From assembly GCA_900473795.1 (NCBI GenBank), contig UCMT01000007.1, positions 62,001 to 126,000 of the forward strand: a stretch of DNA of 64,000 nt, written 5' to 3'. Shown piece after piece: positions 26,765 to 45,781 of the stretch. A program made the translations under genes and the position numbers. The stretch is from Hyphomicrobiales bacterium (GTDB taxonomy: Bacteria > Pseudomonadota > Alphaproteobacteria > Rhizobiales > Rhizobiaceae). Below the pieces are notes generated by a model. The model saw only the letters and a program-made list of their open reading frames with translations, was not told where the DNA came from and searched no databases. Every line of letters starts with the position of its first letter. Position 1 is the stretch's first letter.

Positions 26765-27814
26765 TTAGCTCGCAACGGCGATCGTGTGTTCAGGCGACCA
26801 GTCGAGCGAGATCGTGTCGCCCTGCTTCAGCACGACGCCGTCCTTGTTCTGCGCGAACAGCTTGACCGCCATACCATCCGGCGTCTCGAGAAGGTAGGAC
26901 AGAACAGGGCCGGCATAGATGACGGTGGTGATGCGGGCCTCAAGCCGGTTGGCGTGGCTTCCACCGGAAGAAATCGTCATTTTTTCCGGCCGCACCGCCA
27001 GGGTGACATCCGAACCGTTGGCAGGAAGCGTGCTTGCAGTCCGCACCACCGTGCCGCTGGCGAGGCGCACCGCGCCGCCTTCAACCTTGCCTTCGAGGAA
27101 ATTCGAATCTCCCAGGAACTCCGCAGCAAATCGCGTCGTCGGTCTTTCATAGACGGTTGCCGGTTTGCCTGTCTGAACGATCCTGCCCTTGTCAAGAATG
27201 GCGACCGTATCGGCGAGCGTCAGCGCTTCCTCCTGGTCGTGCGTTACGAAGATCGTCGTCAGGCCGCTTTCGCGCTGGATTCGCAGAAGCTCGACCTGCA
27301 TTTCCTGCCGCAGACGCCGGTCGAGCGCGGAGAGCGGCTCGTCAAGAAGAAGCACGCTTGGCTTGATGACCATGGCGCGCGCCAGCGCGACGCGCTGTTG
27401 CTGGCCGCCCGAAAGCTGTTTCGGCATCCGGTCGGCAAAACCGGGAAGGCGCACCATCTCCAGAGCGCGATCAACTTCCTTGCGTGCCGCAGCACCTTTT
27501 ATCCCACGCCGCTCTAAGCCGAATGCAACGTTCTGCGCGATCGTCATGTGCGGAAACAAGGCATAGGACTGGAACATCATGCCGATGTTGCGGCCCCAGA
27601 CGGGAATATTGGTCACGTCGTTGTTGCCGATCATCACGACACCCTCGTCGGGCTTGATAAAGCCGGCGATGATGCGCAGCAGAGTGGTCTTTCCAGACCC
27701 GGAAGGACCCAGAAGACTGGTGAAGGAACCTTCGACAAATTCCGTGGAAATATCCGTCAGAACCTTGGTCGAGCCGTAGGTCTTGGCGACCGTGTCAACT
27801 TTAACGTTTGTCAC
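26765..27814 (-). CDS. ABC transporter ATP-binding protein (PotA/spermidine-putrescine type)
   Basis: A 349-residue cytoplasmic ATPase. Walker A GPSGSGKTTLL (about 36-46), Q-loop, signature LSGGQQQR (about 134-141), Walker B VLLLDEPLSALDRRLR, H-loop VTHDQEEAL, then a TOBE-like C-terminal domain (about 280-349). This is the layout of PotA and FbpC-type importers. A GTG start with GGAG 7 bases upstream overlaps the end of the upstream permease by 14 bp. It energises import of the ligand bound by the substrate-binding protein at 29496. Confidence 0.93.
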   Translation of the reverse strand: MTNVKVDTVAKTYGSTKVLTDISTEFVEGSFTSLLGPSGSGKTTLLRIIAGFIKPDEGVVMIGNNDVTNIPVWGRNIGMMFQSYALFPHMTIAQNVAFGLERRGIKGAAARKEVDRALEMVRLPGFADRMPKQLSGGQQQRVALARAMVIKPSVLLLDEPLSALDRRLRQEMQVELLRIQRESGLTTIFVTHDQEEALTLADTVAILDKGRIVQTGKPATVYERPTTRFAAEFLGDSNFLEGKVEGGAVRLASGTVVRTASTLPANGSDVTLAVRPEKMTISSGGSHANRLEARITTVIYAGPVLSYLLETPDGMAVKLFAQNKDGVVLKQGDTISLDWSPEHTIAVAS

Positions 27815-28580
27815 TGGTATCTCCGGGTTTGGCGAAGCGCGCGAAAATGAGAATGACGGTCATCGAGCCGAGCAGGAGCAGCGTCGATATCGCGTTGATT
27901 TCGGGCGTGAAGCCCTTGCGGATCGCGGAGTAGATCTGGACCGGCAGGGTCGAGTAGCCGGGCGTTGCGAGGAAGTAGGAAATCACGAACTGGTCGAGGG
28001 AGACTGCGAAGGCAAACAGTGCAGCACCGAGGATGCTCGGATAGAGTAGCGGCAGCGTTACCGAGAAAAACGCATGGATTGGGGTGGAGCCAAGGCTCAT
28101 TGCGGCCTCTTCCAGATCGGCGCGGATCGTCTTGAAGCCGGTCCCGACCACCAGCACCACATAGGGAATGGCAAGCGCGACATGGCCTATTAGCAGGGCG
28201 TGCATGCCGCGACCGATCCCGGACCAGTAGAAGAAGACGAGCATCGCGGTACCCGTGATCAACCACGGAATGGCGATTGGCGGCAACAGAAGCAGCTGCA
28301 GTAGGCTCTTGCCGCGGAATGTCCGGCGGGCAAGCGCGGTGGCAGCGAGCGTGCCGAGGCTCGTGGCGAGCACAGAGGTGATGACGGCGATGATGATGCT
28401 GTTCATGCCGGCCGTCAGCAGTTGCTTGTTGCCGAGCAGCGCGTCGTACCACCGGAAGGAGAAGGTGAAGGGCAGCTCGTAGAGCTGGGATTCGTTAAAC
28501 CCCATCGCCATCATCACGATGATCGGCGTGTAGAGGAAGAACAGAACCACCAGAAGATAGATGTGACCGATTTGCTTCAT
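27801..28580 (-). CDS. ABC transporter permease (PotC type)
   Basis: A 259-residue inner-membrane permease with six hydrophobic segments and the EAA-type loop (DLEEAAMSLGSTPIHAFFSV, about residues 143-162) that contacts the ATPase. It is the second permease of a polyamine/opine/cation-type importer, 11 bp after the PotB-type gene and overlapping the ATPase gene. Confidence 0.92.
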   Translation of the reverse strand: MKQIGHIYLLVVLFFLYTPIIVMMAMGFNESQLYELPFTFSFRWYDALLGNKQLLTAGMNSIIIAVITSVLATSLGTLAATALARRTFRGKSLLQLLLLPPIAIPWLITGTAMLVFFYWSGIGRGMHALLIGHVALAIPYVVLVVGTGFKTIRADLEEAAMSLGSTPIHAFFSVTLPLLYPSILGAALFAFAVSLDQFVISYFLATPGYSTLPVQIYSAIRKGFTPEINAISTLLLLGSMTVILIFARFAKPGDTSDKR

Positions 28581-28591: not shown

Positions 28592-29506
28592 CTATGCAGC
28601 AGCGCCGCGACGAAGTACGCCGGAAAACGTCGCGAAGATCGCCAGGACAACGGCAAGCAGCGTGAAGGAAAGCGCAGCACCCAGCGGCCAGTTGAACGCT
28701 TGCGTGAACTGATCTTCAATCACCGTTCCCATGGTCACGCCGACCTTGCCGCCCAGAATGCGCGGTTCCATGAAGGAGCCGATGACCGGCACGAAGGTAA
28801 GCACGGCGCCGGAAATAAGGCCTGGCGCTGCCATGGGGATGAGGATCCGGAACAGGATCGTCCACCACCGCGCGCCAAGGCTAGCCGCAGCCTCGATGAT
28901 CGCATCATCGATGGTCACGAGCGCGATATAGCAAGTCAGGATCATATAGGGCAGATAGCCGTGAACGAGACCCAGCACGATGGCATAGCGCGTGTAGAGG
29001 AAAGAGATCGAGCCAGTATCGGCGGAAACCATATGCAGCACATTGTCCAGAAAGCCGTTTTCCCTGAGCACCATCGTCCAGGAGAAGACGCGGACAAGGC
29101 CGTTCGTCCAGAAAGGAAGAAGGATAAGGATGAGCAGCGTTTCGCGCATGCGGCCCACCGTGGCCCTCGCAAGCGCCACCGCCGCGAGGAACCCGAAGAT
29201 CGCACAGAGCAGTGTCGTCCAGAAGCCGATCACAAGGGATGTCCAGCCGATATTCAGCAGATAGGGCTGATCGATGAAGGCCCGGTAATGCTTGAGCGTG
29301 AACGTGATCGGCGCCTTGCCCATTGGCGTCGCCGACATAAAGCTGAACACGAACATGGTGAGCAGCGGCAAAAGCACCGCCAGCGTCAACCATGCGTAAG
29401 TCGGCAGCAACAGTGCCGTGGTCGCGACCCAAGAGGGAAGCATGCGGTGTTTGCGCGGACCCGAAGGTCCGCGCACCGCTTCGTTGAGAACAGCGTCACT
29501 CCGCAT
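28592..29506 (-). CDS. ABC transporter permease (PotB type)
   Basis: A 304-residue inner-membrane permease with six or seven hydrophobic segments and an EAA-type loop (DDAIIEAAASLGARWWTILF). The N-terminal extension with PTYAWLTLAVLLPLLTMF and the following long periplasmic loop are typical of PotB-type permeases. Its start overlaps the substrate-binding protein gene by 11 bp, indicating translational coupling. Confidence 0.92.
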   Translation of the reverse strand: MRSDAVLNEAVRGPSGPRKHRMLPSWVATTALLLPTYAWLTLAVLLPLLTMFVFSFMSATPMGKAPITFTLKHYRAFIDQPYLLNIGWTSLVIGFWTTLLCAIFGFLAAVALARATVGRMRETLLILILLPFWTNGLVRVFSWTMVLRENGFLDNVLHMVSADTGSISFLYTRYAIVLGLVHGYLPYMILTCYIALVTIDDAIIEAAASLGARWWTILFRILIPMAAPGLISGAVLTFVPVIGSFMEPRILGGKVGVTMGTVIEDQFTQAFNWPLGAALSFTLLAVVLAIFATFSGVLRRGAAA

Positions 29507-30572
29507 AGAACGCCTTGACCTCCTGCCAGAGGTTGTTAAACGCCTCGCGCCGGTCGTCCGGCAGCGCCGACATGATGCTCATGGTGGCAATATATTCCGG
29601 CTTGTGGATCTGGCGGCTGAGGTCGTCGGCAGGCAAGGCTTCCATGGCAGCGACGTTGGACGAAGCCGGAGCACCGGCCTTGGTTGCCCATTCGACGTAG
29701 AACTTCGGGTCGATCATCCAGTTGGCGAAAGCGTGCGCGCCTTCGGCATTCGGGGCGCTAGCCGGAATGCCGAGACCGTCGACCCAGCCGATGCCGCCTT
29801 CCTTCGGAACGACGAAGTCGACCGGAAGCTTGCTGACGCGCTTCGAGCGGACGGAACCGCCCGACCAGTACATTGCTACGTCGAATTCCTTGGCGGCGAA
29901 GGACTTGTTCCACTGGTCTTCGGTCGACCAGAGGAGCTTGACGTTCGGCTTGAAGCCCTTGAGCGTCTCCTTGACGAGGTCGAGATCCTTCGGGTTGTTC
30001 ATGTCCTGACCGGTAAGAAGCGCTGCGGCGGCGATGACGCCGACGGCGTCGTCCTGAAGCGCGACCCGGTTCTTGTAGGCGGGATCTCCGAGCACGGCGT
30101 AGCTGTCGGCTTTCGGAAGACCTTCGCGCATGGCAAGTGCCGTCAGGCCCCAGACCCACGGCACTGCGTAGCCTTTTCCGTCCTTGTTGAAGTTCTCGTT
30201 GGCGCGGAGATTTTCGGCCACCGACGAGATGTTCGGCACCTTGGAATAGTCGATCGGCGCGATGAGGTCTTCGGCCATCGCCTGGGCGCAACGGGCGGCA
30301 TTGAGCACGACAAGATCATAGGCGCCCGGATTGGTGCGCAGTTTGGTCAGCATTTCCGCTTCGGAACTGTAGTAGTCGTGAACGACTTCGATACCGGTAC
30401 TTTCCTGGAAAGCCTTAATCGACCACGCTTCGTCCGTACCGTAGCCCTGCCAGTTCAGCACCGTGATGGTGCCGGCCGCGGCGGCTTTTCGCGGGAACAT
30501 CGAATAGCCGGCGCCAGCGATCAAACCTGCGGACATCAATTGAAGTGTGTTGCGCCTGGTAATGTTATTCAT
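29496..30572 (-). CDS. ABC transporter substrate-binding protein (PotD-like, Tat-type signal)
   Basis: A 358-residue periplasmic binding protein. I place the start at 30572 (MNNITRRNTLQLMSAGLIAG), with AGAGGGG upstream and an RRNTLQ twin-arginine-type signal ending at about residue 30 (AAAAG). The mature part starts ITVLNWQGYGTDEAWSIKAF, the pattern of PotD-like extracellular binding proteins for polyamines and other cationic or zwitterionic compounds. First gene of the importer unit; the control region at 30573-30961 precedes it. The ligand is unknown. From context it could be a pyridine glycoside or betaine-like compound rather than a polyamine. Confidence 0.9.
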   Translation of the reverse strand: MNNITRRNTLQLMSAGLIAGAGYSMFPRKAAAAGTITVLNWQGYGTDEAWSIKAFQESTGIEVVHDYYSSEAEMLTKLRTNPGAYDLVVLNAARCAQAMAEDLIAPIDYSKVPNISSVAENLRANENFNKDGKGYAVPWVWGLTALAMREGLPKADSYAVLGDPAYKNRVALQDDAVGVIAAAALLTGQDMNNPKDLDLVKETLKGFKPNVKLLWSTEDQWNKSFAAKEFDVAMYWSGGSVRSKRVSKLPVDFVVPKEGGIGWVDGLGIPASAPNAEGAHAFANWMIDPKFYVEWATKAGAPASSNVAAMEALPADDLSRQIHKPEYIATMSIMSALPDDRREAFNNLWQEVKAFYAE

Positions 30573-30670
30573 TGTTAGCCCCTCTGGCTTTGGTTGACAC
30601 ATACAGTCACGATCCCGGTAGAACCCAGGCATTCGATTGCGACCAAACTCTTGGGCAAAATCGCCCATAA

Positions 30671-30688
30671 TAGTTTGTAAGCAAACTA
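30671..30688. promoter_or_regulatory. Candidate MarR operator 1 (importer unit)
   Basis: TAGTTTG-TAAG-CAAACTA, a perfect 7-bp inverted repeat about 100 bp upstream of the substrate-binding protein start. Size and symmetry fit MarR-family operators; the MarR gene at 25562 is the obvious partner. Confidence 0.55.
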
Positions 30689-30928
30689 ATTTTGACGTAG
30701 CAGTCCAGAAGGAAGCGCCGCATTTTTCTCTGCAGCGCAGCATGTGAATGAACGATCGAATCTTACACGCATGCATAATTTGACGTCATTCGCCGATGAA
30801 CAAAGTTCCATTAGGCCAAATTTTTACTAAAAGGTCAAAAATGCGCTAAAATGGCATTTTTTTCCTTAGCGCATTCGGCTGACATCTCCATTTGCTCATA
30901 TACCCTCTGGATTACATTCTTTTTATTT

Positions 30929-30948
30929 TTAGTTTGTACACTAATTAA
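30929..30948. promoter_or_regulatory. Candidate MarR operator 2 (importer unit)
   Basis: TTAGTTTGTACACTAATTAA shares TTAGTTTG with the palindrome at 30671-30688 and is itself an imperfect dyad. It lies about 360 bp upstream of the importer, beside the stop of the GH63-like gene. Confidence 0.4.
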
Positions 30949-30961
30949 TATGCCGAACTCG

Positions 30962-33229
30962 TTATGGAGTCAATAGTTGCCTTCCGTCAGAGCCTGCTGA
31001 TATGGGCGAAAAAACCACGGTAAAGCGCGGTGCGAACGGCCCGGAAGAAGCCGGCACCGTAATTTCCTGATTGACCAGTTGACTCCAGACGACCGCGCCG
31101 CCCTCGCCTTCAGTCACGACTAGCGCATTGGAGCCGCCCGTCGGAAGCTCGATCGTTCCCTCGACGGGCTCCGCCGCTAACATGCAGAAGCTGATATGTC
31201 CTTTTTCCACGACGATACCGGACAGCTGCCCGCGCATGCGCGTGCGCAAAAAATCGGCACCATTAAGTGCGAGCGTCAGACGGCCGTCGCGTATGGTGAC
31301 GGTCGCAGACCCCGCCGGCGTCAGCATCGGCCCCACGGAAACATCATCTCCGGAATTGGTGATGGTCCACCCGCGCCATGGATCGAAATCGCAGATCTCG
31401 CCCACCGCCATCATCGGCAACAGGGCGGCCCAGATGTAAAAGGGATCGGTGTCCCCCTGGTCCATCGCCTCGCCCGTGACCGCATTGTAGTTTTCCGCCG
31501 CGATGCGGTTGGTCCGCCAGGACTTCATGAACAGGTCATAACTCTGCCGTGCCAGAGCGCTCGCCTGCGTGAAATAGCCATAGCGGCGCAGGCCGAGCCA
31601 GACCATGAAATTGACATTCGGCCAGATGCGGCCGCGCCAATAGACATTGTCGGCGAAGGCCGGATCGTCGCGGGTAGCATTCGGCAGACCGAACGTGCCG
31701 GCAAAGGTGCTTTCGTCCTTGAGATGGCGAAGCAGATCTTCTGCTTGATCGGCGGTCGCAGCGCCGCAAAGCAAAGGGTAGAAGCTTGTTGGTGACAGGG
31801 AGCGAATAAAGCCGCCCTTGCGCTGCCGGTTTGCGAAGATTTTGCGCGTGTCGTCCCAGAGTTCCTGCGAAATGAGCTTGCGGATTTGTGTTGCAGCGGT
31901 CGCAAACTCGTCCGCATCCGCCTGATAGCCGAGCACAGCTGCCATCTTGGACAGCATTTCGGCATCCAGCGCCAATGCACAGTTGAGCCCCAGATCGAAG
32001 GTGGAAAGCGATCGCGTCGCGGGGTCGTAGACGGCCTCGTCATGGGTTGCCGAATTGTCCATGCCGGTTTCGTTGCGCGCGGCAAAGGCGGTTCCCTTGT
32101 AGAGCCCCTCACCGACATCGGACGTTCCGCAGGAGACGAGACCCACGCCATCCGGATCGCGATGGGTCCGCCACCAGCGCTGGTTTCGCGCAAGCGCATC
32201 GTAAAAGGCCTTGATGATCGAGATTTCACCCGTTCGCTGATAAAGCTGCCAGGCAACGAGCGCGCCATGCGGTGGCTGGCTGCGATCCACCCAGGCATCG
32301 TTGGAGGTGACGATGCAGGCGATATTGCCCTGCGGTGTGGCGCCGGCAAGCGCCGCCGCCATGTTTTCGCGAGCGAGATCAGCGTCAAAAACCCCGGCGA
32401 GAAGGGCTGCGAACGTCTGGTCGTTGTACCAGACCGCAAATTTTCCGAGGTTCCAGATGCGCGTCACCGCGGTATAGGGCCGTGCATTGGTTTCATCCCA
32501 GATAGTGTTCCAGGCAACCACATCCCGAATCGCATCCAGAGCACCCTCATAGGCGGCGGTCTGCGCCGGCGGTATTTCTGTCGGTCTGCTCCCGAGACCG
32601 GCGATGGCTTTCTCGATAGCAAGCGCCGCACTGTCGGCGACGGCAGCGCAATAGGCGCCCTGACGCATCATTTCCAGATTGAAGCGAAGGGCCAGGACGG
32701 GCGCGGCATTGCTGCGGCTTGCGAGGTGGAAATAGCCGTTCGCCTCGAAATCCGCGCGCAAAGCGGCGATCGTGTCATGGCCGGTCACCTGGACAGGAGC
32801 ATCGGCCGTTGTGATCGCAACGAACCGCGTACCGATCTTCACCAGTGCGACGCCTTTTTCCGCATCGAACGTCACCGTCTCGCCGCCTTCAGCCGATATC
32901 GCGATCGTGACCCAGAAGCGCAGCCCCCATTCGCCGGTTTTCAAGCCCTGCCACTCACCACGAACCGTGAAGGGATCTGACTTCGTTGCCGAGAAGCCAA
33001 GGGTTGTATCGGAATGGTCGGTCTCAAGGTCAATGTGCGAACCGTCGATGCTGTGGCGTCCAAGCCGCACGGTGTTGCTGCGCGGGGCAATTTCAGATGT
33101 CGTGCGGCTCCTGCTGGAATAGAGGATCGGCGTAATCCGGACGCCGAGCGGCAGAAACACCATTTCGGCCGGGCGGTCCGACCAGCTGTTCCAGGCGCGG
33201 CTTAGGGGTACGGTCGTGTGCAGCAGCAT
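30962..33229 (-). CDS. GH63/trehalase-like glycoside hydrolase
   Basis: A 755-residue cytoplasmic protein with a beta-rich N-terminal domain (to about residue 250) and an (alpha/alpha)6-barrel glycosidase domain. Supporting motifs are WNTIWDETNARPYT, a DP-GVGLVSCGTSD region, YWRGRIWPNVNFMVWLGLRR (the conserved RGxxWP of GH63/GH37-like enzymes) and a late AENYNAVTGE. Related bacterial enzymes act on glucosylglycerate, mannosylglycerate or other alpha-glucosides. The start at 33229 lies 14 bp after the GH106-like gene; the open frame extends upstream into that gene but is not supported. It is the fourth gene of the nicA-nicB unit. Substrate unknown. Confidence 0.82.
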   Translation of the reverse strand: MLLHTTVPLSRAWNSWSDRPAEMVFLPLGVRITPILYSSRSRTTSEIAPRSNTVRLGRHSIDGSHIDLETDHSDTTLGFSATKSDPFTVRGEWQGLKTGEWGLRFWVTIAISAEGGETVTFDAEKGVALVKIGTRFVAITTADAPVQVTGHDTIAALRADFEANGYFHLASRSNAAPVLALRFNLEMMRQGAYCAAVADSAALAIEKAIAGLGSRPTEIPPAQTAAYEGALDAIRDVVAWNTIWDETNARPYTAVTRIWNLGKFAVWYNDQTFAALLAGVFDADLARENMAAALAGATPQGNIACIVTSNDAWVDRSQPPHGALVAWQLYQRTGEISIIKAFYDALARNQRWWRTHRDPDGVGLVSCGTSDVGEGLYKGTAFAARNETGMDNSATHDEAVYDPATRSLSTFDLGLNCALALDAEMLSKMAAVLGYQADADEFATAATQIRKLISQELWDDTRKIFANRQRKGGFIRSLSPTSFYPLLCGAATADQAEDLLRHLKDESTFAGTFGLPNATRDDPAFADNVYWRGRIWPNVNFMVWLGLRRYGYFTQASALARQSYDLFMKSWRTNRIAAENYNAVTGEAMDQGDTDPFYIWAALLPMMAVGEICDFDPWRGWTITNSGDDVSVGPMLTPAGSATVTIRDGRLTLALNGADFLRTRMRGQLSGIVVEKGHISFCMLAAEPVEGTIELPTGGSNALVVTEGEGGAVVWSQLVNQEITVPASSGPFAPRFTVVFSPISAGSDGRQLLTP

Positions 33230-33243: not shown

Positions 33244-35946
33244 TCAGTGTTCGTTCGCAAGCGGAATGAGGCGCGGCGGTGTGGTCAGGCCGCTCTTGTC
33301 CAGCGTCTCGCCCTGATAAGGCGTGCCAGCGTAATAGCGATTTGCGGCGGTGTTGGACACGGCAAGCTCCAGTTCGTAGCGGCCGGGCAGCAACCGGCCG
33401 AGCAGGAAACGATATGGGCGCCACGCACGCAGGCCGGTCTCGCGACCGTTGAGGCGCACGGTGGCTGCCGTGTGAACCTCACCCAGTTCCAGCATCCATA
33501 CACCGTCCGAGGGGATCTCAAGCAGATGGCGGTAGATGCCCGTTCCGGAAAAGGCCGGGTGACCCTGCATCTCCCAGCCCGTATGGACGGAAATCGGATC
33601 AAAACCGCTGTCGCTTCCGGCTGCAAAGGTCCAGCCGTCTTCAAGGATGATGGCACGCGAGGTATCCATCAAAGGAAACGACGTGAGCTCTTTGTCGACC
33701 GGTGCATGCCCGCCCGCTTCCCTCAGGCGGAGACATTTTACCTGTTGAGGTTCCAAGTCGATCGACAAACGTCCGAATGTGCCGATGGGGTCGACCGCGC
33801 CATCGGCGGCCGACCAGACTTCGCAGTTGAAGCCATCGCCTTGGACGATGCTGCATTCGAGACCTTGCGTTCCATCGTTGAAGACAACAACCCGCCACCA
33901 ACCGTCGGTATCCCGGCCTATCCATCGCCATAGAAACTGGCCGGCTGGCGCAACGATCTGCGGCCCGATGAGCGGCAACTGGGCAACCAGTTCGGCAATG
34001 TCCGATCGCGTCGGCAGATCGCGCAGATGCGCTGTCCCGCGTTCACCGGAGCTGTCGAAAGTGCCGCTGCAAACGCTTTTGACGCCGTTGCCAGACATCC
34101 AAATCAGACCGCCGGCGGCGCGGAAATCGGCAATCTTACCCAGCGTATCGGCGGAACGCAGAACCGTCGCCGAAGGCATGACGACGGCATCGAAGGCAAG
34201 TCCGACCAGCCCGATCGTTCGGCCGTCAATGGACGCGTTCGACAGGTCACGTTCATTGACCAGCATGAAATCGCAGCCGAGCGCTAGAAGATGCTCGCAC
34301 CACGCGCCGATATGCGTCGCATGGCTATGGCGCGGGCCTTCGGCCCAGGCGGTGTGCAGCGGATAAAGGATGGCAATACGCGCATGCGGCCTGGCCGGCT
34401 CGATGAAGGCCGATATCCGCGCCGATTCCTCTGCGAAAAGGTGATGATAGGCCCACCAGGGTTCGAAATTGATGCCCGGCCCATAGTCGAAACGCGGATT
34501 GGCAAACGGGGTCGGATCGTTGTCGTGACCATCGGTCTGATAGACACCGTGCCAGAGAAACTGCCGTGTTCCCAGGCAATGCAGCCGGATCGCCTGCGCC
34601 CGCATGGTTTCCAGCGTCAGTTCCCATTGGCCGGCCGCACGAACAGGCGTGCGCGTGGCACTGGCATAGGTCTCGACGACGCAGCGACTGCGGCCATTGG
34701 ATCGGGCGACGGAATCGCCCATCTTCGGGGCGAGCTGGGCGACGAAATTGTTGGAATCTACCGCCGTTTCATGGCGGAAACGGTCGATGCCGAAAAAGTC
34801 CGTAGCCGGCGCCACCCGTGGATCGATGCTGGTGAAGCCCCCGTTGAGAGACCAGGAGCTGACATGCGGCAGGATCTCGTGCCCTGTCAGGACGATCCCG
34901 CAATCATCTGCCCATTCGCGCAAGGCGCCGAAGAAGCTCGCGTTCATCAGGCCCGAATAGGCCTCGTGGAACTGCGCCCGCAGCCTCGGCGTCTCTTGGC
35001 CGACATCGCGCAGCAACGACAGAAGGACGTGCGGAAAAGCGGCCCCGGCCTTTTCCGCGGCGATCGGCGCAAGCGTCTCGGCAAAGAGAAGGCTGTTGCC
35101 CAGATTGCCCGCCAGCTGATCCCAGCGATAGAAGCCAGCGGCCGGCTGGTCGTAGAAGACCAAGCCCAGCGGATCGGGTATCAGATCGCCCAAGACACGG
35201 CGATAGGGTTCAAGGCCTACCTTGATGAAGCGTGCGGCCGCCTCCGGCAGAAGATAGTTGATGAGCCGCGACGTCGCGGAGCGGGCGCTGACGAAGACCG
35301 TCATCACTTGGTCGGCCGGAATGCTGCCATCGAACGCGAAACTGCACGACAGCGCGTCGGCGTTCGCAACCCGCACTCGCGCGCTGATGTCGATCGCCTG
35401 ACGAAGATCGCTCATTGTCCCGGACGGATGGAGAAGCGCCGCCTCGATCGTCCATTCGCACCAACGAGCCTGTCCGCCCTCATAGTGCCAGCGCAGGATT
35501 TCCGGCCCCATGCTGTTGACGAAGGGCGGATGGAGGCCGCTGATCTTCCCTTTCGCTTCCGATGTCGTGGACCAGAAAAGATGCCGCTCCCGCAGGTCGT
35601 CGCGGCCATCCACCGTTCGCCCGCCGGCGTGGCCGCTGATCCAATTGTAGTCGTCGTAGATACCGGCCATCAGGCCGAGCTCGCCGGCAATCTCGATCGC
35701 CTGCCGGTAGGCGGCAAGATAGGCTTCCGACAGATAGAGTTCGCGGGGAAAGGCAATGCGCGTCTGAATGAGGATGGTGCCGAAGCCCTGATCACGGAAA
35801 TCGGTCAATTGCGCGCGGCTGGTTTGCGCATCGGGTATCGAATGCCAGAACCAGTAGGCGGACGGGCGGAACGCATGGGTCGGATCGCGAAACAGCGCCC
35901 GGCTTTCCGCCTCCGTCATCGCCTCGTTTGCCCGCCGCGTTTCCAT
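33244..35946 (-). CDS. GH106-like glycoside hydrolase (alpha-L-rhamnosidase type)
   Basis: A 900-residue protein with an N-terminal FRPSAYWFWHSIPD and GLMAGIYDDYNWISGHAGG pattern typical of the GH106 alpha-L-rhamnosidase-like group. A long central catalytic region follows (around GHEILPHVSSWSLNGGFTS). A C-terminal GH2-like sugar-binding module (about residue 770 onward, with GIYRHLLEIP and VRLNGRETGLRAWRPYRF) completes it. No signal peptide, so it is cytoplasmic. It starts 2 bp after the nicB stop, so it is translationally coupled to a nicotinate dehydrogenase gene, an unexpected pairing. The sugar specificity cannot be told from sequence. Confidence 0.78.
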   Translation of the reverse strand: METRRANEAMTEAESRALFRDPTHAFRPSAYWFWHSIPDAQTSRAQLTDFRDQGFGTILIQTRIAFPRELYLSEAYLAAYRQAIEIAGELGLMAGIYDDYNWISGHAGGRTVDGRDDLRERHLFWSTTSEAKGKISGLHPPFVNSMGPEILRWHYEGGQARWCEWTIEAALLHPSGTMSDLRQAIDISARVRVANADALSCSFAFDGSIPADQVMTVFVSARSATSRLINYLLPEAAARFIKVGLEPYRRVLGDLIPDPLGLVFYDQPAAGFYRWDQLAGNLGNSLLFAETLAPIAAEKAGAAFPHVLLSLLRDVGQETPRLRAQFHEAYSGLMNASFFGALREWADDCGIVLTGHEILPHVSSWSLNGGFTSIDPRVAPATDFFGIDRFRHETAVDSNNFVAQLAPKMGDSVARSNGRSRCVVETYASATRTPVRAAGQWELTLETMRAQAIRLHCLGTRQFLWHGVYQTDGHDNDPTPFANPRFDYGPGINFEPWWAYHHLFAEESARISAFIEPARPHARIAILYPLHTAWAEGPRHSHATHIGAWCEHLLALGCDFMLVNERDLSNASIDGRTIGLVGLAFDAVVMPSATVLRSADTLGKIADFRAAGGLIWMSGNGVKSVCSGTFDSSGERGTAHLRDLPTRSDIAELVAQLPLIGPQIVAPAGQFLWRWIGRDTDGWWRVVVFNDGTQGLECSIVQGDGFNCEVWSAADGAVDPIGTFGRLSIDLEPQQVKCLRLREAGGHAPVDKELTSFPLMDTSRAIILEDGWTFAAGSDSGFDPISVHTGWEMQGHPAFSGTGIYRHLLEIPSDGVWMLELGEVHTAATVRLNGRETGLRAWRPYRFLLGRLLPGRYELELAVSNTAANRYYAGTPYQGETLDKSGLTTPPRLIPLANEH

Positions 35947-35948
35947 CC

Positions 35949-38900
35949 TTAATGCACCATGGACTTGATGTGGTCTATTGCCGGACCAGTACCAGCCCAG
36001 GCCTCCTTGCCGGGCGCGAAGCGTGCGCGCAGATAGGCCGTCAGGTCTTCCATCTGCCCCTTGTCTAACACGTCGCGAAAGGCCGGCATCGACATGACTT
36101 CCGGTGCGCCGCGGCCCGTCGTTTCGGCAAGGATCGCGGGGGCTTCCACGCCGTTCATGAGGACCTGGAGAACATTGTCGGGCACATCGCTGTGCAGGTT
36201 GCTGTTCAGTGTCAGCGGCGAAAGGATCGAGTTTCCTTCATGGCAGGAGGCGCAGGCACCTTCGAAAATGCGCGCACCCTTCGGCGAAATCCTTGCGGCC
36301 TGCTCTGATGCCGTAGCGCTTGCCGTGATCGCCGCTTGCGTCTGAACATCCGGCGTTTCGGACGCTGGAGAGGTGTTTAACCGAGAAAGATACACAGCCA
36401 TGGCGCGAATATCGCTGTCCGGCAACGGCGCCAATGCCGAGACCACATCGGCCATCGGACCGGCGGCGCTCCCGTGATCGCGCGCATAGCCGCTGCGAAG
36501 ATAGTCATAAAACGCAGTCTCGGTCCACGTCACCGGCCCTTTGGCAAGCGCGTTCAGCGCCGGCGCTTCCCAGCCATCGGCAAAGCCGCCGGAAAGGCGG
36601 GCTTTTCCGGTCTTTTCGGCACCCAGCACATTGCGTTCAGTGTGGCAGGCGGAACAGTGGCCAAGCGTTTCGACGAGATAGGCACCGCGATTCCAGACGG
36701 CATCCTTCGCCTGATCATAGCTGAAGGGAGCCGCCTTCAGGAACATGGCGTTCCAGCCCGCCATCATCGAACGAATGCTGTAGGGGAAGGCCAGCTTCGT
36801 TTCCGGCGCCTTCTGCGCGACGGGCGCCTGCGTCATCATGAAAGCATAGAGGGCCTGAAGGTCGGCTTCCTCGGCGCCGGCAAACGACGTGTAGGGATGC
36901 GCCGGATAAAGATGATGGCCATCCCGGCTGATACCTTGACGCATGGCGCGCTCGAAAGCCGGATAGGACCAGTTGCCGATACCATTTTCCGGATCCGACG
37001 TGATGTTGGTGGCATAGACCGCGCCGAACGGCGTGTCGAACCGGCGCCCGCCGGCAAAGGCCCGGCCATCGGTGCCGACATGGCAGACATTGCAGGCACC
37101 AGCTGCGGCGGCAAGCCTGCCGCGTTCGATGGTGACGGCGCTGTAGACATTCGGGTCCGGCTTGTCGACGGAGCTGATCGCCGGACGCCAGGGAGAGGCC
37201 ATCGTCGCAAGTCCGGCGACGGCGCTCAAGATACCAACGACTGGCACGCCCATAGTCCACCAGCGGCGCCTGCGAACGGGTGAAACAGTCTTTTCGATCT
37301 CCTTCCCGTTGAGGCCGGCCAGAACGCGCTCCGGCGTCAACGGCAGTTCGCGAAAACGGATGCCGGTCGCATCGAACACCGCATTGGCGATGGCCGCGGC
37401 ACTCGGAACGGAGGCGGACTCCCCGACCCCGAGCGGCGGCTCGTCAGGGCGCGGGATCATCAAGACGTCGATATCGGGCACTTCGGGGAAAGTGATGAGC
37501 GAATAGCCGCCCCATTCCTTGCTCGTCACCGCCGTCGATGAAAATCCCACCTGCTCCTTCAACACCCGGCTGGTGGACTGGATGATGTTGCCGTGGATCT
37601 GATGGCGCACACCGTCCGGGTTGATCATCAGGCCGGAATCCTGGCCACAAGTCACCTTGGTGACGGCAATCTCGCCCGTTTTCCTGTTGACCGCGACATC
37701 GGCAACCCAGGCCGCCCAGGCGGCGGCGGTTCCGGGGAATTTTCCATGCACGTAGACCGCATAGGCAAAGCCCCGGCCGTAAAGCAGATCGCCTTCGCCG
37801 CCCAGCGTGCCGGGACCGGTGTGCGGCACCCATTTGGCACGCTCGGCGGTCGCCCGGACGAGATCAACGGCCCGGGGGTCCTGCAGATAGCGCAGCCGGT
37901 ATTCGATCGGATCGACGCCGGCGGCCGAGGCGAGTTCATCGACATAGGATTCATGCGCAAACGTGTTCGGCATGGCCGAGACGCCGCGAAACCACGAGGC
38001 GCGCGCGATCGGCGGCATGTCGTGCACGGTTACCCGGAGATTGCCATAGGCATAGGGCGGGATCGCCGTCCGGTCGCCCATCTGTAGGACATCAGCAACC
38101 GGCGAGATCTTGCCGGTTAGCAGCAGTGGCAGCGTTGGCGCGAGGTTGGACGGGTAGCGCGTCTCGAAATCATAGCCAGCGGGGCCGCCTTCGAGATCGA
38201 GCCCGCCGCGCACGTCGATCACCTGCGCCGCGCCCTTGGGCTCCCAGGCGTGCTCCTGCTCGCGGGTCAGCTGCACCCGCACCGCTTGGCCGACGGCACG
38301 CGACAGCAGCGCCGCATCGGCGGTGACATCGTCGGCGCAATTGCGGCCGTAACATCCGGCGGCCTCAAGCCGCTCCACGGTGATGCTCTCTTCCGGCATA
38401 TCGAGAAGAACCGAAAGGTCCTTGCGCATCGGAAAGGGATTCTGCGTGCCGGACCACACGGTCAGCCGATCGTCGCGATAATCAGCCACCGCGCAGGAAG
38501 GTCCGATCGAGCCGTGCATCTGGTAGGGCCAGACATAGGTGCGGTCCATCGCATTCGCGGCGCCCTCGAGCGCCAGATCGACATTGCCGCGATCGGCCAG
38601 TTTGCGCGGCGTCGATGGATTGGCACGCAAAGCTTCTTCGGGAGAATTCAGGTCGGGCAGTTCCGGCGGAAGGCGCCAAACGGCTTTCAGGCTCTTCGCA
38701 GCTTCCGCCGCATTTTCCTCGCGGGTTGCGACAACGCCGACGAAATCGCCGATGGCGACGACGGCAACAAGACCCGGAATGTGCTCGACGGAACTTTCAT
38801 CCACCGAAATGAGGCTCGTTCCGACATGCGCGCCGTGATCGAAGCCGGCATAGGGCGGCCGCACCACCCGGCCATGCAGCATGCCCGGCAGGCGAACATC

Positions 38901-39488
38901 GTGAACATAGGTCCATCGGCCGGTCGCCTTGGCCGGAATATCCACGCGCGGACGGGAGGACCCGACGATCCGGTAGTCCGCCACCGGCTTCAGCGGCGCC
39001 TCCGGATCGAGGACAAGTTGAACATTGGCACCAGTGACAAGATCGCCGAAGGACAGGCTTCTGTTCTCGCCGGTGACCGCGCGGATGATCCCATCCTCGA
39101 CAACGAGATTTTCCGGCGGGAGTTGGAGCCGCTCGGCCGCCCGGCGCAGCAGATATTGCCTAGCCGTCGCTGCTGCACGCTGCAGCGGCTTGGCAGTGAC
39201 CTGAATGGTCTCGCTGGCGATGGTCGCGCCCTGATTGGGCACGGCGGAGGTGCTGCCCAGAACCATTTCGACATTTTCGAACAGCATGTCGAGTTCTTCG
39301 GCGACGATCTGGGCGAGCGATGTGCGGATGCCTGTTCCCAGATCCACGTGACCGTTGAACGCGGTGACGCGACCCTCTGCATCGATCGCGATATAAAGCT
39401 CGGCATCCGGAAGCGACGCGGATACCACAGCCAGCATGTCCGATGCAGCGAGATAGCTCGACTTTGGGGAATCGCGGCCGACAGTCAT
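35949..39488 (-). CDS. nicB: Nicotinate dehydrogenase large subunit with cytochrome c domain
   Basis: A 1179-residue fusion, close to the length of Pseudomonas putida NicB. Residues 1 to about 720 are a molybdenum hydroxylase large subunit (xanthine dehydrogenase fold: NGHVDLGTGIRTSLAQIVAEEL, GQDSGLMINPDG, PPLGVGESASVPSAAAI). A membrane helix (about 740-760) follows, then a multi-heme cytochrome c region with CNVCH, CSACH and CASCH. It hydroxylates nicotinate to 6-hydroxynicotinate and passes electrons out to the respiratory chain. Start at 39488 overlaps nicA (ATGA). Maturation factors are encoded at 45782-47603. Confidence 0.95.
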   Translation of the reverse strand: MTVGRDSPKSSYLAASDMLAVVSASLPDAELYIAIDAEGRVTAFNGHVDLGTGIRTSLAQIVAEELDMLFENVEMVLGSTSAVPNQGATIASETIQVTAKPLQRAAATARQYLLRRAAERLQLPPENLVVEDGIIRAVTGENRSLSFGDLVTGANVQLVLDPEAPLKPVADYRIVGSSRPRVDIPAKATGRWTYVHDVRLPGMLHGRVVRPPYAGFDHGAHVGTSLISVDESSVEHIPGLVAVVAIGDFVGVVATREENAAEAAKSLKAVWRLPPELPDLNSPEEALRANPSTPRKLADRGNVDLALEGAANAMDRTYVWPYQMHGSIGPSCAVADYRDDRLTVWSGTQNPFPMRKDLSVLLDMPEESITVERLEAAGCYGRNCADDVTADAALLSRAVGQAVRVQLTREQEHAWEPKGAAQVIDVRGGLDLEGGPAGYDFETRYPSNLAPTLPLLLTGKISPVADVLQMGDRTAIPPYAYGNLRVTVHDMPPIARASWFRGVSAMPNTFAHESYVDELASAAGVDPIEYRLRYLQDPRAVDLVRATAERAKWVPHTGPGTLGGEGDLLYGRGFAYAVYVHGKFPGTAAAWAAWVADVAVNRKTGEIAVTKVTCGQDSGLMINPDGVRHQIHGNIIQSTSRVLKEQVGFSSTAVTSKEWGGYSLITFPEVPDIDVLMIPRPDEPPLGVGESASVPSAAAIANAVFDATGIRFRELPLTPERVLAGLNGKEIEKTVSPVRRRRWWTMGVPVVGILSAVAGLATMASPWRPAISSVDKPDPNVYSAVTIERGRLAAAAGACNVCHVGTDGRAFAGGRRFDTPFGAVYATNITSDPENGIGNWSYPAFERAMRQGISRDGHHLYPAHPYTSFAGAEEADLQALYAFMMTQAPVAQKAPETKLAFPYSIRSMMAGWNAMFLKAAPFSYDQAKDAVWNRGAYLVETLGHCSACHTERNVLGAEKTGKARLSGGFADGWEAPALNALAKGPVTWTETAFYDYLRSGYARDHGSAAGPMADVVSALAPLPDSDIRAMAVYLSRLNTSPASETPDVQTQAAITASATASEQAARISPKGARIFEGACASCHEGNSILSPLTLNSNLHSDVPDNVLQVLMNGVEAPAILAETTGRGAPEVMSMPAFRDVLDKGQMEDLTAYLRARFAPGKEAWAGTGPAIDHIKSMVH

Positions 39489-40015
39489 GCTTGTGTCTCC
39501 GGAACGACGGAATGGGCGCTTGCGGACGAAGCGGCCTTCGACAGAACGACAGCCTTGCGCACGGCGGCAAGAATTTCGATATGGGTGCCGCAACGGCAGA
39601 GATTATGGCGCAGCGCCTCGCGGATATCGGTTTCCTGAGGATCCGGATTGCGGTCCAGCAACGCGACCGCGCTGATGATCATCCCATTGAGGCAATATCC
39701 GCACTGTGCGCCAGATTCCTCTATGAAGGCCTGTTGGACGGGATGAAGATGCTCCTCGTCACCAAGCCCTTCAAGCGTGGTGATCTCCCGCTTGGCAATC
39801 GCCGCGATCGGGATCATGCAGGATCGCACCGCGCGCCCGTCGATCAGAATGCAGCAGGCGCCGCATTCGCCGAGGCCGCATCCGTATTTCGGGCCGTTGA
39901 GCGCGAGATCGTTGCGCAGGATATAGAGCAGGGGGGCCTTGGGATCGGCCTCGACGACCACATTCCTGCCGTTGACCTTGAGAGAAAATAGCGAGGGCAC
40001 GGACATCTTCGTCAT
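39485..40015 (-). CDS. nicA: Nicotinate dehydrogenase small [2Fe-2S] subunit
   Basis: A 173-176 residue iron-sulfur subunit. Two [2Fe-2S] sites are visible: the plant-ferredoxin type (YGCGLGECGACC) and the helical one (AQCGYCLNGM with LCRCGTH). It passes electrons from the molybdenum centre of NicB. The start is uncertain: ATG at 40015 or 40006, neither with a strong ribosome site. It is the first gene of a nicA-nicB-GH106-GH63 unit and is divergent from nicC across a region with two NicR-type palindromes. Confidence 0.93.
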   Translation of the reverse strand: MTKMSVPSLFSLKVNGRNVVVEADPKAPLLYILRNDLALNGPKYGCGLGECGACCILIDGRAVRSCMIPIAAIAKREITTLEGLGDEEHLHPVQQAFIEESGAQCGYCLNGMIISAVALLDRNPDPQETDIREALRHNLCRCGTHIEILAAVRKAVVLSKAASSASAHSVVPETQA

Positions 40016-40153
40016 CTTTTGGGCCGGAGCCGGAGACAAGCACGAGGATTACCGGCGTTACCGGCCTGACACCCGCGGCTGCGCTTGGCAATGAACGACA
40101 TGAAACTCCCCGCTCGTCCTGCGCCCTCGAGCCTGGCGCACCCTCACTTTAAT

Positions 40154-40327: not shown

Positions 40328-42291
<1,964 letters not shown>

Positions 42292-42326: not shown

Positions 42327-42381
42327 GCCGCAGCGTGAGCGCAGAGTTGTGCGCCCGTTCACTTCATCAAAGGAGCCGTCC

Positions 42382-43134
42382 GTGCAGAAACCCTATCGTA
42401 TCGGCCAGATCGTCCCGAGTTCCAACACCACGATGGAGACGGAAATTCCGGCGATGCTGATGGCCCGCCAGATGATCCGTCCAGAGCGCTTCACCTTCCA
42501 TTCCAGCCGCATGCGCATGAAGAAGGTGGTGAAGGAAGAGCTGGCGGCCATGGACGCCGAATCCGATCGGTGCGCCATCGAGCTGTCCGATGCCCGCGTC
42601 GATGTTCTTGGATATGCCTGCCTCGTTGCCATCATGGCGATGGGGCTTGGTTATCACCGCGAGTCGGAAAAGCGCCTGACCGGCCGCACCCAGGAAAACG
42701 GCACTAATATTCCGGTCGTCACCAGCGCCGGCGCCCTGATCGAGGGCCTGAAGGTAATGAAGGCGAAGAAGATCGCTGTCGTGGCGCCCTACATGAAGCC
42801 GCTGACCGAACTCGTCGTGAATTACATTCGCGAGGAGGGCTTCGAGGTGATGGACTGGCGGGCGCTTGAAATTCCCGACAACCTCGATGTCGCCCGCCAC
42901 GATCCGGAAAACCTGCCGGCGATCGTCCAGACGCTCGATCTCTCGGATGTCGATGTCATCGTGCTTTCAGCCTGCGTGCAGATGCCGTCGCTGCCTGTGA
43001 TCGCCAAGGTCGAGGCCATGACCGGCAAGCCGGTCCTCACCGCCGCCGTCGCGACGACGTATTGCATGCTGAAATCGCTGGGACTGGAAGCAGTCGTGCC
43101 GGGTGCCGGCGCGCTGCTGTCCGGCGCGTATTGA
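42382..43134 (+). CDS. nicE: Maleate cis-trans isomerase
   Basis: A 250-residue Asp/Glu racemase-fold enzyme that converts maleate to fumarate, the last pathway step. Catalytic cysteines are Cys80 (LGYACLVAIM) and Cys198 (VLSACVQMPS). The GTG start at 42382 has AAGGAG 7 bases upstream and gives exactly the 250 residues usual for NicE. It is separated from nicD by 90 bp with a terminator-like hairpin. Ten bp lie before nicF. Confidence 0.95.
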   Translation: MQKPYRIGQIVPSSNTTMETEIPAMLMARQMIRPERFTFHSSRMRMKKVVKEELAAMDAESDRCAIELSDARVDVLGYACLVAIMAMGLGYHRESEKRLTGRTQENGTNIPVVTSAGALIEGLKVMKAKKIAVVAPYMKPLTELVVNYIREEGFEVMDWRALEIPDNLDVARHDPENLPAIVQTLDLSDVDVIVLSACVQMPSLPVIAKVEAMTGKPVLTAAVATTYCMLKSLGLEAVVPGAGALLSGAY

Positions 43135-43144: not shown

Positions 43145-43786
43145 ATGCTAAGTGCTGAAGCCAACTATCAGGGCGTCTGGGGCAACCGCATCGGCTTCGG
43201 TCAGCGCCCCGCCCTGCTCGTCATCGACTTTCTGAAGGCCTACACGGTGGAAGGCGCACCGCTCTTTGCACCGGGCGTCGTCGATGCAGTGGCGCAAACA
43301 CCAGCGCTCCTGGCTGCCGCGCGGGCCGCAGGCATTCCCGTCATCCACACCCGCATCCTTTATTTGGCCGAAAACTGTGCCGATGGCGGCATGTGGGTGA
43401 AGAAGGCCCCGGTCATGAAGGCCATGGTCGAGGGCAACGTGCTGGCCGAATTCTGCGACGGCGTCGCGCCGGAAAAAGGCGAACTGGTCATCGTCAAGCA
43501 ATATGCCAGCGCCTTCTTCGGCACCAGCCTCGCCTCGTTGCTGCACACGCAGGGGACCGACACGGTTATCATGGCCGGCTGCTCGACCAGCGGCTGCATC
43601 CGTGCGAGCGCCGTCGATGCCGTGCAGCACGGCTTCCGGACCATCGTCGTGCGCGATTGCGTCGGCGACCGGCATCCCGATCCGCACAATGCCAACCTCT
43701 TCGACATCGACAGCAAGTATGGCGATGTCGTTTCGAGGGAGGAGGCGATCGCCGAAATCGCCAAGGTCAAGTCCGACTGTCCGTAA
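43145..43786 (+). CDS. nicF: Maleamate amidohydrolase
   Basis: A 213-residue isochorismatase-like cysteine hydrolase that turns maleamate into maleate and ammonia. Catalytic triad: Asp28 (LVIDFLKAY), Lys118 (VIVKQYASAF) and Cys151 (CSTSGCIRASAVDA). GAGGAGA precedes the ATG at 43145. Length and motif spacing match NicF of P. putida. It lies between nicE and nicX. Confidence 0.94.
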   Translation: MLSAEANYQGVWGNRIGFGQRPALLVIDFLKAYTVEGAPLFAPGVVDAVAQTPALLAAARAAGIPVIHTRILYLAENCADGGMWVKKAPVMKAMVEGNVLAEFCDGVAPEKGELVIVKQYASAFFGTSLASLLHTQGTDTVIMAGCSTSGCIRASAVDAVQHGFRTIVVRDCVGDRHPDPHNANLFDIDSKYGDVVSREEAIAEIAKVKSDCP

Positions 43787-43830: not shown

Positions 43831-44862
43831 ATGGATCAATTCAGCTTCACGGAAATCTGCCTGCATCAGTTGAAGATGTCAGGCGTCCACGAGGGCGAAA
43901 AACTCATCGTCCTCACCCAGGGCAACGGGCGCCTCGATTACGCCGACGCCTTCATGGCCGCGGGCATGCGTCTCGGGGCCAAGATGTATCACATGCGTTT
44001 GCCGCCGGTGCCGCCGGCAGGTGCATGGGCGGTCGGCCAGACAGGCCTCGCGGCCATGCCGGAAGCGGTCGAGGCCCTGAAGGCCGCCGACATGCTGATC
44101 GATTGCATCTTTCTGCTCTTCAGTCCGGAACAGATGGCGATCCAGGCGGCCGGTACGCGTATTCTGACCGCCGTCGAACCGCCGGAGCTTCTCGCCCGCA
44201 TGCTGCCGACGAAGGAACTGCGCGAGCGCGTCGAATTTGCCGGCGACCTGCTGTCCAAGGCAAAGGTGATGCGGATCACTTCTGCGCATGGCACAGATGT
44301 CACCTACAAGCTCAACACCTATCCCGCCATCACGGAATATGCATGCACCGACGAGCCGGGCCGCTGGGATCACTGGCCATCTGGCTTCGTGTTCACCGGT
44401 GGGGACGACGACGGCGTCGATGGTACGATCGTCGTTGCTCCGGGCGATATCCTGCTGCCGCAGAACATCTACGTGCGCGATCCGATTTACTACACCATTG
44501 AAAACGGTTGGATCACCGACATTCGCGGCGGCCTCGACGCCGAGCTGGTCAAATCCTACATGGCAGGTTTCAACGATCCGCGTGGCATGGGTATGAGCCA
44601 TGTCGGCTGGGGCCTCAATCAGAACGCCAAGTGGCATCGCATGGTGCCCGGCGAATTCCCGGGCGGCATGGGCATGGAGGCCCGTTCCTTCTACGGCAAC
44701 GTCATGTTCTCGACCGGCCCGAACAACGAACTGGGCGGCCCGAACGACACCGCCTGCCATCTCGATATCCCGATGCGCAATTGCTCGCTTTTCCTCGACG
44801 ACGAGCCGATGGTTCTCAACGGCGACATCGCCGTCAAGGAAATGCAGTACAACTTCAAATAA
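43831..44862 (+). CDS. nicX: 2,5-Dihydroxypyridine 5,6-dioxygenase
   Basis: A 343-residue Fe(II) extradiol-type dioxygenase that opens the ring of 2,5-dihydroxypyridine to N-formylmaleamate. The iron-binding region is visible as GMGMSHVGWGLN (histidine) and CHLDIPMRN (His and Asp) in the C-terminal third, together with an upstream acidic residue. The protein is about the length of P. putida NicX (350). Start at 43831. A hairpin follows its stop and then nicR. Confidence 0.94.
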   Translation: MDQFSFTEICLHQLKMSGVHEGEKLIVLTQGNGRLDYADAFMAAGMRLGAKMYHMRLPPVPPAGAWAVGQTGLAAMPEAVEALKAADMLIDCIFLLFSPEQMAIQAAGTRILTAVEPPELLARMLPTKELRERVEFAGDLLSKAKVMRITSAHGTDVTYKLNTYPAITEYACTDEPGRWDHWPSGFVFTGGDDDGVDGTIVVAPGDILLPQNIYVRDPIYYTIENGWITDIRGGLDAELVKSYMAGFNDPRGMGMSHVGWGLNQNAKWHRMVPGEFPGGMGMEARSFYGNVMFSTGPNNELGGPNDTACHLDIPMRNCSLFLDDEPMVLNGDIAVKEMQYNFK

Positions 44863-45062: not shown

Positions 45063-45524
45063 ATGACAGACGACGACAAAAGGGATGTACCGCCGGGCAG
45101 CTACACCTTCACCCAGCAGGTCGGCCATCTCATGCGCAAGGCCTATCAGAAGCATCTGGCCATCTTCCAGGAAAATGCCAGCGATCCCCATCTGACGTCG
45201 GTGCAGTTCGTCACGCTTTGCGCGCTGCGCGACAATGGACCGAGTTCGCAGGCCGAGTTGGTCAAATCGACGGCGGTGGATCAGGCAACGATCAGGGGCA
45301 TCATCGATCGCCTGAAAGCGCGCGGCCTGATCGATATTTCCAAGGACAAGGAGGACGGCCGAAAGGTGATCATGTCATTGCTACCGGCAGGGCAAGCCGT
45401 GCTGGATGATATGTATCCCAAGGCGCACCTGATCACGGAGCTGACCATGAAAAAGCTCAATCCGGCAGAACGTGTCGCATTGCTCTACCTGTTGCGCAAA
45501 GTCTCCGAGGATGACGACGTTTGA
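45063..45524 (+). CDS. nicR: MarR-family repressor of nicotinate catabolism
   Basis: A 153-residue MarR regulator. N-terminal helix TQQVGHLMRKAYQKHLAIFQ, the winged helix region VKSTAVDQATIRGIIDRLKA (about 77-96) and wing KEDGRKVIMSL are visible. Its place downstream of nicX matches the nicXR arrangement of P. putida, where NicR represses the late nic genes and 6-hydroxynicotinate relieves repression. The two AAGYGTATACGCTT palindromes between nicA and nicC are its likely operators. The start is the ATG at 45063; AAGGA lies about 10 bases upstream. Confidence 0.9.
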   Translation: MTDDDKRDVPPGSYTFTQQVGHLMRKAYQKHLAIFQENASDPHLTSVQFVTLCALRDNGPSSQAELVKSTAVDQATIRGIIDRLKARGLIDISKDKEDGRKVIMSLLPAGQAVLDDMYPKAHLITELTMKKLNPAERVALLYLLRKVSEDDDV

Positions 45525-45677: not shown

Positions 45678-45746
45678 ATGGGAGCAGCTCAGTTTTTGGG
45701 AACTGCGTCGGAAAACAAACTCGTTGGATCTTTGGTGAACTCGTGA
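45678..45746 (+). CDS. Very short ORF with strong ribosome site, leader or remnant
   Basis: Twenty-two codons (MGAAQFLGTASENKLVGSLV plus NS) follow AGGAGG at ideal spacing. The stop lies 35 bp before the likely xdhC start. It might be a leader peptide of the cofactor-maturation genes or the start of a destroyed gene. No homologue is recognised. Confidence 0.25.
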   Translation: MGAAQFLGTASENKLVGSLVNS

Positions 45747-45781
45747 AACAGGGATCTTGGAATCTCGATGGAGACGCTGGC

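Follow-up and report, generated by a model that had tools for sequence, protein, structure and literature searches.

What is a rhamnosidase-like enzyme doing among genes for the breakdown of nicotinate? The question is posed by a stretch of 64,000 nucleotides (the window: positions 62,001 to 126,000 of contig UCMT01000007.1, assembly GCA_900473795.1) from a bacterium of the Rhizobiaceae, in which the gene for a 900-aa protein resembling glycoside hydrolase (GH) family 106 follows nicB, the gene for the large subunit of a predicted nicotinate dehydrogenase. The first-pass annotation proposed that the two genes are translationally coupled, and saw no biochemical reason for the tie unless the substrate is glycosylated. 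The coupling claim was over-read, and the wider biology is more interesting than the junction. The proviso probably holds the answer: plants make nicotinate N-glycosides, according to the available portion of Liu et al. (2019, PMC6776627).

The cluster comprises eleven minus-strand genes, in the order nicA, nicB, GH106-like, GH63-like, a PotABCD-type ATP-binding cassette (ABC) importer, an isochorismatase-family gene, a MarR-type regulator and a GH3 gene; nicC, nicD, nicE, nicF, nicX and nicR are divergent. NicA is a 2Fe-2S subunit and NicB a molybdopterin subunit with C-terminal cytochrome c domains, the domain architecture of nicotinate dehydrogenase, for which hydroxylation of nicotinate is predicted. 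NicC, the 6-hydroxynicotinate monooxygenase, and NicX, the 2,5-dihydroxypyridine dioxygenase, are both alongside and match solved enzymes strongly. The presence in one cluster of the nicotinate pathway, three different glycosidases and an importer akin to those for polyamines fits the use of nicotinate glycosides; we give a probability of about 0.55 to the reading of the locus as a cluster for nicotinate-glycoside utilisation. Such genes for sugar cleavage and import next to nicotinate genes, seen in root-associated and other bacteria, suggest that these bacteria feed on sugar-tagged nicotinate, made by plants and released from roots.

The plant side of this account comes from the same study (PMC6776627, as far as its available text goes). 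Arabidopsis roots hold nicotinate N-glucoside, O-glucoside, riboside, N-pentoside and, tentatively, N-rhamnoside; the N-glucoside is the product of both UGT76C4 and UGT76C5, the N-pentoside that of UGT76C5; in a UGT76C5 mutant the levels of N-pentoside and N-rhamnoside are low; and every conjugate other than methyl nicotinate also turned up in the liquid medium. Sugar addition is a plant detoxification of nicotinate, and the conjugates reach the medium around the roots.

On the bacterial side, the importer would take up sugar-conjugated nicotinate from roots (N-glucoside, N-pentoside, N-rhamnoside or riboside); cytoplasmic GH106-like, GH63-like and GH3 enzymes would strip the sugar, any pairing of a given glycosidase with a given sugar being likewise putative; the isochorismatase-family enzyme may cleave an amide form; the freed nicotinate would then pass through 6-hydroxylation by NicAB to NicC, NicX, NicD, NicF and NicE. 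Judged by eye, no signal peptide is present at the start of any of the three glycosidases, and the ABC binding protein carries a twin-arginine-like leader. The cluster is a concrete candidate for bacterial breakdown of plant nicotinate conjugates, and it predicts which class of substrate is used by a protein family that ranges from rhizobia to Streptomyces and Escherichia coli and goes under the labels hypothetical or carbohydrate-binding. A literature search, whose results were seen in part, returned no bacterial enzyme that breaks nicotinate N-glycosides and no test of the role proposed here; nor did a search find a paper naming both nicotinate dehydrogenase and rhamnosidase.

Linkage to the nicotinate genes

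How general is this neighbourhood? The comparison rests on 80 named loci, kept from 91 relatives, with flanks of up to 10 kb; loci cut by a contig end stay in the denominators and are counted as missing, and two pairs (L034 and L058, L037 and L088) are the same locus reached twice. The GH106-like gene is accompanied by nicAB in 46 of the 80, by any nic gene in 49 and by any of nicC to nicX in 41; the GH63-like gene is there in 64, ABC permeases in 51, the isochorismatase gene in 51 and GH3 in 32. Gene order was read in the 47 loci that have both nicB and the GH63-like gene, on one strand throughout: nicB, GH106-like, GH63-like in 37; nicB, GH63-like, GH106-like in nine (Aureimonas, Ancylobacter, Mesorhizobium and a metagenome-assembled genome, or MAG, of the Rhizobiaceae); and GH106-like, GH63-like, nicB in one. 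Loci holding nicAB have differing gene orders in two deep clades, and on a quick tree of 82 members, with its long branches flagged, the linkage changes seven times, at least six of them forced by starred branches. The tie first noticed between a glycosidase-type gene and nicotinate catabolism is supported: it recurs in many strains and several families.

Other lineages have the association with other partners. Two Gluconobacter loci have the same three glycosidases with TonB and MFS_2 genes and a NicC relative in the stretch; one Gluconacetobacter locus has transport and glycosidase genes, no nic gene in the stretch, and a NicC of 59% identity elsewhere in the genome; in Amycolatopsis, nicX, nicE, an NCS1 permease gene and the GH106-like gene stand together. 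The GH106-like gene occurs in 13 of 297 genomes of the family and in 8 of 397 of the order. NicX at 75% identity or more (next best 47%; the cut-off was chosen after the gap had been seen) is present in 18 of the 297, namely in 8 of the 13 genomes with the GH106-like gene versus 10 of the 284 without it (Fisher p 3.5e-8, which ignores relatedness and includes the window's own genome). The module is strongly, not always, linked to the nic pathway.

All-against-all BLAST clustering of the neighbouring open reading frames (ORFs) gave chained, uninformative groups. At one locus (L035, 12337-14691) a 784-aa ORF with no Pfam match at E 1e-5 directly follows the GH106-like gene, in the place that the GH63-like gene often takes in relatives. 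A Conexibacter MAG that holds the GH106-like gene (L078, genome G869) carries four NicX relatives of 55-56% identity.

Fold and active site of the GH106-like protein

The name GH106, as first given, stands for the fold and does not extend to the Pfam family or to the full catalytic pair. The AlphaFold2 model (pLDDT 84.9; weak stretches at 1-7, 430-439 and 475-488) finds its best structural match in the PDB in 6q2f (Z 25.9, rmsd 4.6, 775 residues; Foldseek E 1.5e-36), followed here by 5mqm, which is BT_0986 (Z 23.4, rmsd 4.0, 731 residues); the GH106 fold extends over most of the chain, and by this model the protein is GH106-like. A profile made with 13 relatives matches both solved GH106 enzymes (6q2f, E 9.9e-25; BT_0986, E 6.9e-17), and 10 of the 14 alignment members match PF17132 at E 0.1 (best E 3.9e-7). 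A PF17132 search of the window's own genome gave no match at E 0.001, and among NCBIfam models the C-terminal jelly-roll alone matches those for rhamnosidases, below their cut-offs. Because the protein falls outside the Pfam model and has no counterpart of the usual general acid, it is not filed as GH106.

The active site was read from an alignment of 82 sequences, the window protein plus those of 81 of 85 loci, taken where a single open frame matched across more than 750 residues. D98, D266, H356, E357, D397, E425 and H466 are invariant in 82 of 82, and all seven sit in, or just after, barrel strands of the AlphaFold2 model's strand list. They disfavour a dead carbohydrate-binding protein, the label that some plasmid homologues bear. 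In a profile alignment by hhalign with three canonical GH106 proteins, E425 pairs with the canonical E618, which pairs with E593 of BT_0986, the general base (numbering from the available text of PMC6828813); the glutamate is present in every sequence. A secondary local alignment (94.9%) equates D266 with the metal ligand D458 and A269 with the acid E461, and the best-scoring alignment leaves that region unpaired, which makes this placing less certain. Position 269 is alanine in 47 sequences, tyrosine in 24, histidine in 8 and glycine in 3, and never acidic.

Loss of the acid is by itself no proof of an N-glycosidase, because active GH106 rhamnosidases of the Ram106B type likewise have no match to E461, as the part of PMC6828813 available states. 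E357 may substitute for the missing acid, or the leaving group may be a pyridinium that needs none. By general chemistry, a pyridinium glycoside should be cleaved without the help of a general acid, and a kept base with the usual acid absent would suit such a leaving group. A bolder proposal, possible but one we lean against, is that the GH106-like proteins form a new glycosidase family cutting N-glycosyl-pyridinium bonds: they would have dropped the general acid since neutral nicotinate leaves well, and kept the base, and rhizosphere bacteria would draw carbon and nitrogen from plant nicotinate conjugates by means of these proteins and two partner glycosidases.

The nicB junction and rival readings

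Is there anything special about the place where nicB meets the glycosidase gene? The nicB stop (TAA, 35951-35949) and the start of the GH106-like gene (ATG, 35946-35944) are indeed 2 bp apart, as first described; the interval then given, 35943-39488, covers the nicB ORF and the junction; the GH106-like gene proper is 33244-35946. The ribosome site placed at the nicB stop fares worse: in the junction sequence, TAAGGATGG, AAGG is the only Shine-Dalgarno-like run upstream of the ATG, and directly abuts it (spacing 0). A second in-frame ATG, at codon 10 (35919), has GAGG 2 nt upstream; because homologue alignments begin at differing residues (many at about residue 7-19; those of L039, L040, L052, L053 and L064 at residue 1), the start codon is provisional. 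Promoter and terminator scans found no such site at the junction, and between 26000 and 41500 the counts of promoter- and terminator-like sites are at shuffle level (4 vs 4.1 and 13 vs 13.4). Tight spacing is general in the cluster and not peculiar to this junction: the nicA and nicB ORFs share 4 nt, 14 nt separate the GH106-like stop from the GH63-like ATG, and in loci with the GH63-like gene first, a start codon overlaps the stop before it, by 4 nt in seven of eight placed loci and by 8 nt in one.

The earlier proposal, that reinitiation at the 2-bp junction fixes the proportion of NicB to glycosidase for a purpose, can also point to the related strains, where 32 of the 34 nicB-upstream junctions that could be placed have a possible start codon (ATG, GTG or TTG, in frame) at -4 to +13 nt relative to the nicB stop, an excess over chance by judgement, not by a computed rate (L034 and L058 being one locus and several rows near-copies; L043, L055 and L057, among the 37 loci with the order nicB, GH106-like, GH63-like, have no placement row). 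The same comparison weakens it. Rhizobium leguminosarum plasmid pRLN4 has the same gene run, interrupted by an XdhC gene after nicB and before the GH106-like gene; in L057 the spacing is likewise 1020 nt; and the order is swapped in the nine loci given above. With the ribosome site wrongly spaced as well, the junction as a device for making the two proteins in step is hardly credible.

Several results weigh against the nicotinate-glycoside reading itself. Since only 8 of the 18 NicX-positive family genomes carry the GH106-like gene, the module is an accessory of the nic pathway. No nic gene was found in the fetched stretch of 31 of the 80 named loci. Thirty-six genomes were searched whole, chosen since nicAB was unseen beside the locus in 35 of them (the stretch is free of nic genes in 32, has some in L103, L104 and L111 and has nicAB in L073; L107 and L109 were left out); NicX at 47% identity or more turned up in nine rows, which are eight distinct genomes, three of which already have nic genes adjacent to the locus. 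Because NicX was found in just these eight, the GH106-like gene is often present where the nic pathway is not. At E 0.1 no Pfam model, PF17132 (GH106) included, matches the window protein. Finally, in Mesorhizobium AR07 (L092) a ribokinase gene lies within a nic-type cassette, between the isochorismatase gene and nicR-nicAB; together with the ribokinase genes of the NCS1 loci (6 of 11), this indicates a riboside as substrate.

This last point belongs to the main rival, which takes a pyridine nucleoside (nicotinate or nicotinamide riboside) as the natural substrate: the GH106-like protein would be a nucleoside hydrolase of unusual fold, ribokinase would take the ribose, and the isochorismatase-family enzyme would be a nicotinamidase. 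The NCS1 family, which includes a yeast nicotinamide riboside carrier, stands in for the importer: PotABCD-type permeases are found in 51 of the 80 loci and NCS1, a nucleobase-type permease, in 11, in Actinobacteria and enterics. Distant members of the GH106-like family adjoin an NCS1 gene, some also a ribokinase gene, the three forming a run in enterics, and a ribokinase relative of at least 30% identity is present in those 6 of 11 NCS1 loci versus 2 of the 69 others, L092 being one of the two. Of six PfkB-type neighbours, L101 and L036 pass the curated ribokinase cut-off, L078, L089 and L092 score best against ribokinase but fall well short of that cut-off, and L112 is weak; weaker PfkB relatives (22-25% identity) close to Rhodobacterales loci were not counted as ribokinase. 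Nicotinate riboside is among the root compounds listed in the available text of PMC6776627. What makes this rival unlikely is the nic-type loci: among those with nic genes, a ribokinase of at least 30% is in the stretch at L092 only; their GH63-like and GH3 enzymes would be superfluous for a riboside; and ribokinase-like genes are common, the window's genome having 18 matches, one above the cut-off.

In E. coli, the run rbsK, NCS1, GH106-like occurs in 48 of 5426 complete genomes, and the GH106-like gene is annotated as hypothetical in 10 of 10 among the matches listed. At L125 (NZ_CP069501.1, 194598-199963) it lies between rpoC and thi genes, a place read in one genome; L113 and L101 are noted for the run as well. 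A DUF4867 gene follows the run on the opposite strand, and the L101 ribokinase copy has an N-terminal DeoR-type helix-turn-helix.

A different heteroaromatic glycoside (a hydroxypyridine or pyridoxine glycoside, for example) might be the substrate, its aglycone joining the nic pathway below nicotinate or being only salvaged; loci with the same transporter and glycosidases but without nic genes do exist, and the NCS1 label spans several N-heterocycles. This is distinctly unlikely, given that nicAB, the first nicotinate step, is the commonest nic part beside the cassette (46 of 80, versus 41 for any of nicC to nicX) and shares its strand in all 47 loci that also have the GH63-like gene. Or two unrelated catabolic islands might co-travel on rhizobial plasmids, sharing strands by chance: 56 of 68 matching plasmid records are Rhizobium, and 38 of the 68 are predicted to be conjugative. 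That would leave the recurrence of the link, in different orders in deep clades and with other transporters in Gluconobacter and Amycolatopsis, as coincidence, and there is little to be said for it.

Gene layout and known systems

The features are collected below. The genes nicA through GH63-like have overlaps or gaps of at most 14 nt and would form one polycistronic unit with no special lock between nicB and the glycosidase. Two transcription units are possible because a 389-nt gap with a terminator-like site, of a kind that occurs at shuffle level, precedes the ABC genes, which may form the second. The roles of NicD, NicE and NicF are those we presume from protein class and gene order, following the Pseudomonas putida KT2440 cluster.

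Features of the cluster (window positions)
Feature	Position	Strand	Basis or remark
GH3 enzyme, beta-glucosidase-like	23144..25495	-	PDB thermostable beta-glucosidase B, E 1.2e-176
MarR-family regulator	25562..26062	-	PF01047
Isochorismatase-family cysteine hydrolase, possible amidase	26165..26761	-	PF00857, E 1.6e-33
ABC ATPase (PotA-like)	26765..27814	-	ORF and homologues; pRLN4 homologue labelled ABC transporter ATP-binding protein
ABC permease 2	27801..28580	-	Pfam
ABC permease 1	28592..29506	-	Pfam
PotD-like substrate-binding protein of ABC importer	29496..30572	-	library matches
Gap, GH63-like to ABC genes	30573..30961	-	389 nt; terminator-like site 30738-30715 (-)
GH63/MGH1-like glycosidase	30962..33229	-	PF22422, E 8.8e-56; YgjK glucosidase, partial match, E 1e-13
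GH106-like protein, 900 aa, candidate nicotinate-glycoside hydrolase	33244..35946	-	profile, fold, alignment
Gap, nicB stop to GH106-like ATG	35947..35948	-	2 bp
NicB-like nicotinate dehydrogenase large subunit	35949..39488	-	Pfam: molybdopterin domains and C-terminal cytochrome c domains
NicA-like 2Fe-2S small subunit	39485..40039	-	Pfam, ORF; start provisional
NicC, 6-hydroxynicotinate 3-monooxygenase	40361..41497	+	PDB 5eow, E 1.3e-175
NicD-like alpha/beta hydrolase	41494..42291	+	Pfam
NicE-like, arylmalonate decarboxylase / Asp-Glu racemase type	42364..43134	+	PF17645; pRLN4 label Asp/Glu racemase; start provisional
NicF-like isochorismatase-family amidohydrolase	43145..43786	+	fold class; start provisional
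NicX, 2,5-dihydroxypyridine 5,6-dioxygenase	43846..44862	+	PDB 7cn3, E 1e-95; start provisional
NicR-like MarR regulator	45063..45524	+	library match

MarR-family regulators are found in both halves of the locus and may sense different ligands, for example the glycoside and the free pyridine. Downstream of nicR, an ORF with an XdhC/CoxI domain (45743-46108, +) is likely a maturation factor for the molybdenum enzyme NicB.

Three known systems bear comparison. The GH106 alpha-L-rhamnosidases (RHA-P of Novosphingobium sp. PP1Y, PDB 6q2f; BT_0986, PDB 5mqm) have the fold and the C-terminal jelly-roll in common with the window protein, and their general base and one metal ligand align with it; it differs from them in its 17-19% identity, its miss of PF17132, the absence (by eye) of a visible secretion signal and, like all 82 aligned sequences, an alanine, tyrosine, histidine or glycine at the BT_0986 general-acid position. 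The nic cluster of P. putida KT2440 shares with the window NicA, NicB with cytochromes, NicC, NicX and other step classes; the window, unlike that cluster, has three glycosidase genes, a PotABCD-type importer and an isochorismatase gene after nicAB, none of which, to our knowledge, KT2440 has in its own. The third system is the plant's: N-glycosylation of nicotinate by UGT76C4 and UGT76C5, as described in the available text of PMC6776627, would supply the proposed substrates. The plant enzymes make the bond between nicotinate and sugar; the proposed bacterial module would break the same bond.

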